27,276 nt of DNA from a virus. Below the pieces are notes generated by a model. The model worked only from the letters and a program-made list of their open reading frames with translations. It had not been told where the DNA came from and searched no databases. This document shows positions 19,442 to 23,528 of the stretch, one piece after another. The DNA lies in the IMG/VR virus record IMGVR_UViG_3300030430_003409, positions 1 to 27,276 of that record; one strand, given 5' to 3'. Positions within the stretch are counted from its first letter, which is position 1. Every line of letters begins with the position of its first letter. Both the position numbers and the translations under genes were made by a program.

Positions 19442-19641
19442 TGGCTTTGACTAAAAGTAACAGTCTATTAAAAAGATATGCTAAACTTGAAAAGTATCAT
19501 GCAGAAATAATGAAACCTGCTAAGGGAAGTAAAGCAAGGCAATGTATTCATTCTACAAATGCTTTTAAAAAGTATGTCAAAACTTTTAGACAAATAAATT
19601 TAGTAGAGAATGATGATGCTAAATTTATGTATGGAACTTAA
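19441..19641 (+). CDS. 66-aa basic helical unknown protein
   Basis: MALTKSNSLLKRYAKLEKYHAEIMKPAKGSKARQCIHSTNAFKKYVKTFRQINLVEN... is basic and helical. AAGGAG seven bases upstream plus a TAATG overlap supports the start. It lies near the end of the recombination operon. No known domain is visible; the charge suggests a nucleic acid or partner-protein contact. Confidence 0.65.
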   Translation: MALTKSNSLLKRYAKLEKYHAEIMKPAKGSKARQCIHSTNAFKKYVKTFRQINLVENDDAKFMYGT

Positions 19642-19701
19642 ATAGTTTAAAAAGTTGTAAAAAAGCTCAGGCTACTTGTCTGCCAAAAATAAGGAGAGAA
19701 T

Positions 19702-20097: not shown

Positions 20098-21240
20098 TTA
20101 ATTCCAAGTAATATTTTCTGAAAATTCTTTTGATTTCTCTGTATGCTGATATGGAGCTATATAAGTTCTATTAACAAAATTAATGTCCTTATCTCCAATA
20201 TAATGTGCTAACTCTAAAGCATTAGAAAATTTATTATAAGCTGCAAAGTAAGTTGTTCTATAATGCCTGAAGAGGTATGATTTTCGCTTAATTGGAAAAT
20301 CCTGATACTCTGGCTGCATTTTTGAAAAAGCTTTGCCTACATCCCTTATAATACGTTCTATGCACACAAATTTACCAAGACTATTTAGAAAAAGCTTATC
20401 TTGACGTTCTGGCAAGGTATTTAGATAATCTTGTATATGATCCTTTAAAGATGCTGAAATTTCAACAATTCTCTCACCTTGCTCTGTCTTTGTTTCACCA
20501 AGTTTTTTGTGTCTTTTGACTGAATTTTCAATGGAAATTGCTAATTTATTAGATTTTAAAAATAATAAATTATGTCTATGTAAAGCCCTTATCTCACTTG
20601 GTCTAGCAGCAGTTTCTAACAAAATCATACAAATAATTTTAATCATTTTATTTGAAATTTTTGCGACCAAATCTTGCATTACTTCAAATGTCCAAAAATC
20701 AAGATCAATTTTTTTTCTTTTCTTTTTTATTGAAAAAATATCAGCAACATAATTTGTATCTTTTGTGACATTGTAATTAAGTTTACCCTTATCTGCACAA
20801 TAAGAAATAATGTTTTTAAAATGATTAAAAATTTTTATTATTGTTTGTCCATGTAGCTTTTTATCTTTTAATGACTCAATAAAATTAATAACCTGTTGTT
20901 TTTCTATAAGCCTTACATCCTGGTTTTTAAAATATGGCTGTATATGACATCTGTAAAAACTTTCATAATCTTCAATTGTGCTTATGCTTGTCCTACCATT
21001 TGATCTTTTATAATTTAAATGAGAATTTACAAAAAAATCCTTAGCTTCATCTAGCGGTAATTCTTTGCTGTGAGTTTTAATAAAACCTCTCTCTTTAAAT
21101 TTTTTTTCTATTTTTGCATTTAATAAAGCTTTAGTTGGTGCTTGTAAAAATGCTTTAGATCCATCAGGCTTTTTATATTCGAATCTTGCTATCTTCTTGC
21201 CTTTTGCGTTTGTAGTAAAATGTATATTATAGTTTATCAT
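20098..21240 (-). CDS. int: Tyrosine recombinase / phage integrase
   Basis: A 380-residue integrase. Residues 1-60 look like an arm-binding domain, 65-165 like the SAM-like core-binding domain, and about 180-370 is catalytic. R213 (LLETAARPSEIRAL), K251 (GETKTEQGERIV), R325 (KSYLFRHYRTT) and the Tyr nucleophile Y360 (NRTYIAPYQ) are in the expected order. The two usual His positions read Y322 and D350 (HYIGDKD) instead. AAAGGAG precedes the ATG and a good promoter lies just upstream, independent of the late operon that ends at the 21333-21371 terminator. It should insert the phage at an attP probably next to its 5' end, so the phage is temperate. Confidence 0.92.
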   Translation of the reverse strand: MINYNIHFTTNAKGKKIARFEYKKPDGSKAFLQAPTKALLNAKIEKKFKERGFIKTHSKELPLDEAKDFFVNSHLNYKRSNGRTSISTIEDYESFYRCHIQPYFKNQDVRLIEKQQVINFIESLKDKKLHGQTIIKIFNHFKNIISYCADKGKLNYNVTKDTNYVADIFSIKKKRKKIDLDFWTFEVMQDLVAKISNKMIKIICMILLETAARPSEIRALHRHNLLFLKSNKLAISIENSVKRHKKLGETKTEQGERIVEISASLKDHIQDYLNTLPERQDKLFLNSLGKFVCIERIIRDVGKAFSKMQPEYQDFPIKRKSYLFRHYRTTYFAAYNKFSNALELAHYIGDKDINFVNRTYIAPYQHTEKSKEFSENITWN

Positions 21241-22240: not shown

Positions 22241-22365
22241 ACTTTTTTCCTTTTTGATCTTCTAAGCTTTGCAAAATCAGCACCAGTAATTTTATTTCTT
22301 GGTGTAGCTACTCTTGCAATTTTCATTTGTTTTTTGCTGTACTTTTTATTTTTACCTTTAGGCAT
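22237..22365 (-). CDS. 42-aa basic protein (KQxKIARVAxPRNKITGADFxxL)
   Basis: MPKGKNKKYSKKQMKIARVA, then TPRNKITGADFAKLRRSKRKKV. The motif KIAxxAxPRNKITGADFxxL is a distinctive signature of tiny proteins in marine phages. AGGAAAAAAATG gives the start, which overlaps the stop of the upstream zinc protein. About 38% of residues are Lys or Arg. Function unknown; it sits in a run of four small basic proteins. Confidence 0.76.
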   Translation of the reverse strand: MPKGKNKKYSKKQMKIARVATPRNKITGADFAKLRRSKRKKV

Positions 22366-22534
22366 TTTTTTCCTGTTGTTGCTTGATGTAATTAGCTCTA
22401 TCACAATCAAAGTGTGAATATGTTTTATTTAAAAAAGCTAAGAATGATTGATCATTTGTAATTTCTTTTTGACAAACTTTACAATAATCAACAAACATAA
22501 CTGTTGTTGGTTTTTTCCATAATTTTTTTTTCAT
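22358..22534 (-). CDS. 58-aa zinc-knuckle-like protein
   Basis: MKKKLWKKPTTVMFVDYCKV, then CQKEITNDQSFLAFLNKTYSHFDCDRANY. C18, C21, H41 and C44 form a CxxC...HxxC set, probably binding one zinc ion. A GTG start at 22591 would add 19 residues; neither start has an SD, and I chose the ATG at 22534. It heads the run of basic miniproteins. The upstream intergenic region contains the divergent promoter of the 22772 gene. Confidence 0.6.
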   Translation of the reverse strand: MKKKLWKKPTTVMFVDYCKVCQKEITNDQSFLAFLNKTYSHFDCDRANYIKQQQEKNA

Positions 22535-22641
22535 AATTTTTTTTGCAAAAAACCCAAAAAGGATTTTATTGTCGCATCTATTCTGTAACACCCTAAAATT
22601 TTGTTGCTCTACTTTTTAATAAAAATTTTTTTTTGAAAATT

Positions 22642-22771
22642 TTGAAAAACTCAATGTGGTATAATGTTGTTATAAAAATTTTTAGTAAAAATTTTTATTA
22701 GTGATAAAAAAATCACTTAGCTATTTAACATTGTGAATAGAGTTAAGTAAGTTCTTAGAACAGGAGATTAC
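22642..22771 (+). promoter_or_regulatory. Promoter and structured leader of the orphan plus-strand gene
   Basis: TGG-TATAAT (22657-22665) is a perfect extended -10; the -35 is weak. Start is expected near 22672, leaving a leader of about 100 bases. The leader contains a hairpin AGTGAT-A6-ATCACT (22700-22717), the left 13-bp inverted repeat (22733-22745), a palindrome GTTCT-T-AGAAC (22751-22761), and then AGGAG before the ATG at 22772. Confidence 0.65.
22733..22745 (+). repeat. Left 13-bp inverted repeat flanking the orphan gene
   Basis: GTGAATAGAGTTA; its exact reverse complement occurs at 23241-23253. It lies in the leader between promoter and SD of the enclosed gene. Confidence 0.8.
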
Positions 22772-23227
22772 ATGATAGTAATAACTGATAAAAAAACAGG
22801 TAAAAAAACAAAAATTTCTTATGAAAATTTTAGAGAACATTTTCAAAAAGAAAAAGATGAACAAATAAAGAAAAACATACTTAAGGCTCTTCAAAAAAAC
22901 TACAAAAAGTTAAGTGATAATGGACATGAAATTATTGCTCCTAGCTTTTTCATAGATAAAATTGAATTACCTGATGAATATGTTTTTCAATTTACTAGAA
23001 AACATTACTCTAACTATGATGATTATAAAAAAACCATGTTTGACCAAAACAACAATGTTATAGATTATGTTTTTGGAGTTTATAATTTAGAGATTTTAAA
23101 ATCTCTTTGTGAAGTGATTGGTTGGAGTAAAGACAAACATGAGCTGTACCATTCGCTTTGGGGTAGAGGATCTCAAGCGGAAGTTTGTATAGAAAATATA
23201 AACAAACATTTTAGTAAAAATAACTAA
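22772..23227 (+). CDS. Orphan plus-strand gene of unknown function (moron candidate)
   Basis: A 151-residue soluble protein: MIVITDKKTGKKTKISYENFREHFQKEKDEQIKKNILKAL..., a Lys/Glu-rich N-terminal helical part (1-50), a middle with IIAPSFFIDKIELPDEYVFQF, and a C-terminal segment YNLEILKSLCEVIGWSKDKHELYHSLWGRGSQAEVCIENI that looks like a small helical domain. No catalytic motif is visible. AGGAG lies five bases before the ATG. It is the only plus-strand gene within the minus-strand lysis/late block, has its own promoter, and is enclosed by a perfect 13-bp inverted repeat. Such solitary genes are often lysogeny-expressed morons, for example phage exclusion or host-modifying factors; this is inference. 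Confidence 0.78.
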   Translation: MIVITDKKTGKKTKISYENFREHFQKEKDEQIKKNILKALQKNYKKLSDNGHEIIAPSFFIDKIELPDEYVFQFTRKHYSNYDDYKKTMFDQNNNVIDYVFGVYNLEILKSLCEVIGWSKDKHELYHSLWGRGSQAEVCIENINKHFSKNN

Positions 23228-23240
23228 TAATAAAGAACAC

Positions 23241-23253
23241 TAACTCTATTCAC
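23241..23253 (-). repeat. Right 13-bp inverted repeat flanking the orphan gene
   Basis: TAACTCTATTCAC, the exact reverse complement of 22733-22745. It begins 14 bases after the orphan gene's stop and its last base is the end of the stop codon of the minus-strand basic protein gene. Confidence 0.8.
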
Positions 23254-23528
23254 TAGCAATTCCACTTTCTTAATGCTTTGTTAATCCTTGAATTAGGATC
23301 TCTTGCTGTTTTTTTTGATGTAAGTCTTTTTTTCATTCCAAGCATTCTGGCACAAAAGCTTTTTCTACGTTTATCAGCTTTACTGCCCTTTTTAATTTTA
23401 CTTGGTTTTGTTGTTACAGGTGCTTTGAGATTTCCGCCTGTAGCTCTATTATAAGCTGCTCTACCCTTAGCATTCAGTCCTCCAGATTTTGACTGACCTG
23501 CTTTTCTTTGCCAAACTGGTGTTGCCAT
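23253..23528 (-). CDS. Basic protein, probable DUF6321 family
   Basis: A 91-residue protein. MATPVWQRKAGQSKSGGLNAKGRAAYNRATGGNLKAPVT, then RRKSFCARMLGMKKRLTSKKTARDPNSRINKALRKWNC. The motifs WQRKxGxxxxGGLNxKGRxxYxxxTGGNLKxP, RRKSFCARMxGM and LRKW are those I associate with DUF6321, a family frequent in phages and large eukaryotic viruses. Very basic (about 30% Lys/Arg). No function is established; the conserved segments suggest a defined fold that binds nucleic acid. The ATG overlaps the preceding stop by one base (TAATG). Confidence 0.85.
   Translation of the reverse strand: MATPVWQRKAGQSKSGGLNAKGRAAYNRATGGNLKAPVTTKPSKIKKGSKADKRRKSFCARMLGMKKRLTSKKTARDPNSRINKALRKWNC

Follow-up and report, generated by a model that had tools for sequence, protein, structure and literature searches.

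Messages of a phage accessory cassette are probably closed by long-range pairing of their ends

The message transcribed from a small accessory cassette of a marine phage very probably pairs end to end, closing into a loop around its open reading frame (ORF). The cassette lies in a 27,276-base stretch of DNA, hereafter the window, which is the whole of one IMG/VR virus record and may be a genome fragment. A preliminary description of this DNA had proposed, as one of two readings of an inverted repeat around a lone gene, a transcript whose ends pair, and comparison with other viral contigs bears this out. Specifically, an arm in the leader is complementary to bases at the stop codon in all 28 contigs that hold a complete ORF, the window included, and six different arm sequences achieve this, which points to covariation of a long-range RNA stem. 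From this pattern we infer that the stem forms in cells. End pairing combined with sealing of the message is, taken as a whole, the reading we consider rather probable, with the weight placed on the structure.

The window encodes a portal protein, virion proteins and a phage integrase (20101–21240), and among cultured phages only Pelagibacter phage HTVC106P matches it at near identity, over a 120-bp stretch; on the basis of that match the phage can be called pelagiphage-like, and it is probably temperate. On the plus strand, a 151-amino-acid cargo ORF (P0001, 22772–23227, family not detected) opposes the neighboring ORFs on the minus strand, as the preliminary description had noted. Also as described there, the gene has its own putative extended −10 promoter: TGGTATAAT stands at 22657–22665 (plus strand) within a conserved promoter block (22547–22666, plus strand) that comprises an upstream element, TGTCGCATCTATTCTGTAACACCC, and the extended −10, TGGTATAATG. 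A TTGACA/TATAAT scan of the window did not call this promoter. Downstream, hairpin H1 (22672–22698; ATAAAAATTTTT-AGT-AAAAATTTTTAT), which aligns in 15 leader haplotypes, marks the predicted transcription start; it is followed by hairpin H2 (22700–22717; AGTGAT..ATCACT) and by a conserved leader motif, TAGCTATTTAACATTGTGAATA (22718–22739), the final bases of which are the beginning of the 5′ arm. That arm consists of helix 1 (22733–22745) and helix 2 (GTTCTT, 22751–22756), and the Shine–Dalgarno sequence AGGAG (22762–22766) lies outside the stem, which stops 5 nt upstream of it. Beyond the ORF, 3′ arm helix 2 (AAGAAC, 23233–23238) begins 6 nt past the stop codon, and helix 1 (TAACTCTATTCAC, 23241–23253) runs into the stop codon (23253–23255) of the opposing late gene on the right (23253–23528, minus strand; 91 amino acids, PHROG 4689, function unknown); all of these leader, ORF and arm features are on the plus strand. 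On the left lies a minus-strand gene (22358–22534) whose start we take to be the ATG at 22534–22532, the ORF list having started it at an upstream GTG. Neither an intrinsic terminator for the cassette nor a stable local hairpin past the stop codon was found in the window.

The repeat that first drew attention to this gene, GTGAATAGAGTTA, occurs at 22733–22745 (plus strand) and 23241–23253 (minus strand) and has no other exact copy in the window. The perfect 13-bp match is as described and is longer than had been claimed, since an internal loop is followed farther inward by pairing of GTTCTT with AAGAAC, for 13 + 6 pairs in all. The accompanying argument that such a pair is unlikely by chance proved weaker than stated. 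In 60 first-order Markov versions of this AT-rich window, perfect 13-bp inverted pairs within 600 nt are common (mean 1.78 per window), and those with at least four G/C pairs occur at a mean of 0.33; the real window has six such 13-mer pairs, among which only the 22733/23241 pair has at least four G/C. Judged from the window alone, the repeat thus exceeds chance only weakly, and it is conservation in other contigs rather than rarity that establishes the stem.

Across the leader cassettes the stem is 12–25 bp long. The own arms of each cassette give RNAduplex energies of −22.6 to −33.8 kcal/mol, and pairing on the 3′ side starts 0–6 nt past the stop codon in 28 of 28 contigs; a 29th (L141), the 3′ piece of the L100 contig, also carries the arm. 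When pairs were tabulated for 14 representatives by position counted from GTGAATA, arm positions 7–12 were each found to hold two to four Watson–Crick types (in order, GC/CG/UA, AU/GC, GC/AU, UA/CG, UA/AU/CG and AU/UA/GC/CG). The mean duplex energy in this set is −27.2 kcal/mol for own partners versus −16.6 kcal/mol between arm types, own arms compared with shuffled 3′ segments give z-scores of −2.9 to −7.1, and the minimum-energy fold holds the long-range pairs in all 14 messages. With one representative of each of the six arm types, the true assignment of 3′ arms beats all 719 others of the 720 in total; the best rival is close (−28.55 versus −29.57), since G–U pairs let A-type and G-type arms cross-pair. 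In leaderless cassettes, by contrast, the corresponding 5′/3′ duplexes reach only −6.0 to −7.3 in the seven tested. Chance alone is ruled out by the arm-assignment result together with the 28 stems and their tight distance from the stop codon, although the contigs are not independent, as all leader cassettes but the window's carry one gene family. Diverged repeats in relatives had been named beforehand as grounds for rejecting a special role; the repeats do diverge, yet they stay complementary, so this refutation fails. Separately, in L151–L159 the 3′ arm shares bases with the stop codon of a convergent, acidic-tailed gene and is thus constrained by two genes at once.

The leader itself, about 100 nt from promoter to start codon, was met again in contig L035, where H2 reads GGTAAT..ATTACC and where the sequence past the stop codon of an unrelated 200-amino-acid gene matches the 3′ arm apart from a compensating change. 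Searching viral contigs with a pattern returned 23 loci, of which 21 proved genuine (L091 and L098, which have no hairpins, ORF or arm, were dropped), and a search with the cargo family then added leaders whose arms differ strongly, such as GTGAATACGACTA with TAGTCGTATTTCAC (L145), TTTAACATTGTGAATATAGTAGG with CCTACTATATCACAGTGTTAAA (L154) and GTGAATATGACCC with GGGTCATGTTCAC (L166). Arm types in which GTGAATA is followed by C or T had escaped the first pattern, and the broader pattern is TAGYTATNNNANATYGTGAATA. The leader is thus present in 33 viral contigs, the window and 32 others. Loci without a leader (L113–L117 and all 14 of L118–L131), cargo relatives without one (L153, L162–L165 and L168) and repeats of contigs already included (L132–L144, L147–L150, L157, L160, L161 and L169) were left out; L093, L106, L107, L111 and L100 break off within the cargo, and L141 supplies the remainder of the L100 contig. 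No convincing leader was found in cultured phages, a covariance model (R1, built on sequence only) found no new one in 88 plus 43 sources, and the motif is absent from 385 genomes belonging to the same class as G001, the source of the Brucella locus L118, a set that may not include SAR11.

In silico, the leader is shown to be a unit that starts at the predicted transcription start and stands behind different promoters. L095 and L107 are identical at 98 of 99 leader positions and at 70 of 119 in the 110 nt upstream, which is close to what shuffled sequence gives (mean identity 0.53, maximum 0.63); for L096 and L100, the values are 104 of 104 and 69 of 123. H1 and H2 are only modestly more stable than shuffled sequence (z-scores of −1.3 to −2.5), H2 is absent from 6 of the 15 haplotypes, and RNAalifold on the leader alignment returned no consensus pairs. 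A known RNA family was considered and rejected, as Rfam covariance models have no match at 22.5–23.3 kb with E up to 1, and so was an attP or tRNA element, there being no tRNA in the window.

It is informative to consider how the cassette came to lie where it does. Contigs L005, L006, L049 and L050 are without the segment 22531–23253 (to 23250 in L049 and L050), their flanks standing 2–6 nt apart, and in these relatives the left flanking gene comes directly after the right-hand late gene. L005 is about 80% identical to the window on both sides over its 8.3 kb, integrase included, whereas L049 and L050 are more distant. Because the unit of promoter, leader, gene and trailer is absent from otherwise syntenic relatives, its identification as a moron-like insertion is supported, and comparison of these contigs indicates that a promoter-plus-gene unit entered between two operon genes, against leftward transcription. 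The preliminary suggestion of a mobilized cassette or moron therefore stands in part: the whole unit is missing from relatives and its right edge falls at the end of the repeat (23253; 23250 in L049 and L050), but its left edge, at 22531, takes in the promoter block and does not lie at the repeat. Likewise, DNA identity with contig L004 ends at 22666, just past the −10 hexamer, and restarts at 23254, just past the repeat; in between, L004 has a different gene, of 94 amino acids, and a GC hairpin. HTVC106P has the same promoter block (86.8% identity over 120 bp) ahead of gp23 (61 amino acids), again followed by a GC hairpin, so the block is common to the window, HTVC106P, L004 and others ahead of different genes. 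Its upstream element (22570–22593), some 70–95 nt upstream of the −10 and present once in the window, is strongly conserved in many contigs and in HTVC106P, where it precedes different cassettes, and is perhaps an activator site. Elsewhere, window positions 19540–19663 share about 73% identity with sequence that lies some 1 kb upstream of the cassette in L035 and L111.

These observations also bear on whether the repeats act in DNA rather than RNA, either bounding a mobile cassette or flanking a segment that can invert, with recombination or gene conversion keeping them identical. The two arms are inverted copies that are almost the same, and a cassette that is absent from relatives and found beside five different flanking genes would fit such a history. 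However, conservation begins some 60 nt upstream of the 5′ arm, at H1 and the predicted transcription start; because the repeats are not the ends of the conserved unit, an inverton or a transposon end was rejected as the principal reading. Moreover, the internal loops and bulges are asymmetric, the distances from arm to Shine–Dalgarno and from stop codon to arm are tight, the insert has no transposase (the cassette itself lacks a recombinase; a phage integrase lies at 20101–21240), and the orientation relative to the promoter is identical in 33 of 33 leader contigs. The differences between arms are wobbles: non-Watson–Crick positions are G–U in the message strand, with no A–C 1 × 1 mismatch. 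A comparison of strands is less clear-cut, in that the message strand is the more stable in 8 of the 14 representatives and the complementary strand in 6, with L095 (by 4.2 kcal/mol) and L158 (by 1.9 kcal/mol) favoring the complementary strand, against the RNA reading. On balance, we regard action at the DNA level as highly improbable.

If the repeats pair in RNA, what stands in their place elsewhere offers a clue to their role. In 11 of 11 cassettes with the same promoter and no leader, a GC hairpin lies no more than about 15 nt from the stop codon, whereas none of the 14 leader representatives has one after the gene; hence the stem stands where a 3′ hairpin otherwise stands. On reading, two cargo relatives without the leader (L153 and L165) also have GC-rich inverted repeats after the gene. 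Two near-identical hairpins, GGCAGTCTGAAATATGGCTGCC and GGCGATCAGAAATGGTCGCC, recur after different genes in leaderless contigs (L003, 8160–8181; L004, 1291–1310; L085–L090), as if they were themselves an exchangeable module, and no U-tract follows them on the cassette strand.

We propose that the transcript would begin with the AT hairpins and the conserved motif, that the stretch just upstream of the Shine–Dalgarno sequence would pair with sequence at or after the stop codon, and that the ORF would thereby be looped by a stem of 12–25 bp substituting for the usual 3′ hairpin. The stem and the 5′ hairpin might then seal both ends of the message against ribonucleases, so that only complete messages would be stable, with the Shine–Dalgarno sequence left free and near the stop codon. 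Sealing as the main role of the stem is a tentative assignment, drawn by analogy with terminator hairpins, though it is the likeliest of the functions considered. In a more general form, the cassettes may carry an ORF clamp, that is, a leader together with a trailer of 20–30 nt, which would move with accessory genes, loop any enclosed ORF, replace the 3′ terminator hairpin and perhaps return terminating ribosomes to the start; this too we hold as possible, with confidence somewhat short of even.

The placement of the stem relative to the ribosome site is where other functions can be weighed. Pairing ends 5 nt before the Shine–Dalgarno sequence in 9 of the 14 representatives and 9–10 nt before it in four, L095 being miscalled (−1, automatic call). 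Predicted accessibility of the Shine–Dalgarno sequence in the presence of the trailer is higher in L092, L154, L158, L166 and L108, lower in L151, L145 and L095, and about equal in the other representatives. That it is not systematically lowered argues against occlusion of the kind known from hok, aapA or icaR and so favors sealing. Fold-back inhibition, in which the full-length message would be inactive until trimming of its 3′ arm, so that a toxic or host-modifying protein would be made late or conditionally, has the geometry of type I toxin mRNAs as set out in PMC6733600, and a stem ending so near the Shine–Dalgarno sequence could hinder 30S loading. Nonetheless, the distal arm does not pair with the Shine–Dalgarno sequence, the accessibility effect is mixed, the products, at 151–210 amino acids, are not small peptides and antisense promoter-like sites number 5 against 6.0 expected, and we judge this function distinctly unlikely. 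That the stem reaches close to both the stop codon and the ribosome site invites a closed-loop reading, in which the stem would set the stop codon beside the Shine–Dalgarno sequence and terminating ribosomes would re-initiate on the same message; the argument is purely geometric, we know of no bacterial precedent for re-initiation by such a stem, and we consider this quite improbable. In L166 and L167 a further ORF begins 41 nt past the cargo stop codon on the same strand, and the stem therefore need not mark the transcript end there. A stem of 12–25 pairs, in these two contigs within a longer transcript with another ORF downstream, could be a substrate for processing by RNase III, for which icaR (PMC3868564) provides a precedent. 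Against this, the internal loop and bulges differ between arm types, and most cassettes hold a single gene that converges on its neighbor; such processing seems unlikely.

The genes that the stem encloses say less about its role. P0001, which had been described as a protein without a known motif, has no detectable relative among viral contigs and phages or in Pfam, PHROGs, NCBIfam and PDB. On reading it is rich in charged residues, and its AlphaFold2 model has a mean pLDDT of 57. All other leader cassettes carry one family of 165–210 amino acids (alignment A5; L035, L092–L112 and L145–L167) with invariant H100, H104 and H124 (L096 numbering), a conserved lysine-rich helical tail and more variable N-terminal parts; it is predicted to be all-helical (AlphaFold2 pLDDT 76), and Foldseek found no match in PDB or BFVD at E 0.001. 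The earlier idea of a defense or host-modifying factor is conjectural, and the defense reading was set aside, as PADLOC has no match for P0001 or three other cargos. BLASTP detects no similarity between P0001 and the other family, so two unrelated genes appear to share the RNA bracket; that the bracket would serve any gene rests on the window's single contrast. A WGRG-type motif occurs in P0001 (residues 127–138, HSLWGRGSQAEV) and in HTVC106P gp23 (HAWGRGKDEV), possibly a short cargo element shared by the two.

It is worth placing this arrangement beside known systems. Like phage morons, the window's cassette is an autonomous promoter–gene unit between two operon genes that is absent from relatives, with its own promoter recognized from sequence features; unlike them, it has a long-range stem in place of the local terminator hairpin. 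The promoter–gene–hairpin cassettes of HTVC106P (gp23) and related contigs share the promoter block and a site next to convergent minus-strand genes, but their genes are different, their leader is short and unstructured, and the gene is followed by a local GC hairpin.

The closest RNA parallels are hok of plasmid R1 and aapA of Helicobacter pylori, in which a stable 5′–3′ long-distance interaction likewise surrounds the ORF; coupled covariations are reportedly named for hok in a title by Gultyaev from 1997. Such interactions are described for type I toxin mRNAs in PMC6733600. In hok and aapA the Shine–Dalgarno sequence is sequestered and 3′ trimming activates translation, whereas in the phage cassette it lies outside the stem. 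Furthermore, the phage products are 151–210 amino acids rather than small hydrophobic toxic peptides, and in place of a cis antisense RNA none is evident here, promoter-like sites being at chance level. In the icaR mRNA of Staphylococcus aureus, according to PMC3868564, a short UCCCCUG motif covers the Shine–Dalgarno region and blocks translation; the phage stem, in contrast, is 12–25 bp long, lies upstream of the Shine–Dalgarno sequence in the 14 representatives (L095 miscalled) and is common to two unrelated genes.

Searches of the literature on structured RNA in pelagiphages, circularization of bacterial mRNAs and UTRs, long-distance interaction in phage mRNAs and morons in SAR11 turned up no such arrangement, as judged by title. 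Long 5′–3′ interactions in bacterial mRNAs were already known; the ORF-bracketing arrangement is, as far as these searches go, a new form of them. With the leader motif and its covarying trailer as a handle, accessory genes can be sought in phages whose hosts are probably the most abundant bacteria in the ocean. End-to-end pairing of bacterial messages is otherwise a feature of a few regulated genes, where it hides the ribosome site; here it would be a reusable part of marine-phage accessory cassettes, set tightly around the ORF with the ribosome site free and, if the clamp is real, a different way for a cell to distinguish complete from broken messages.
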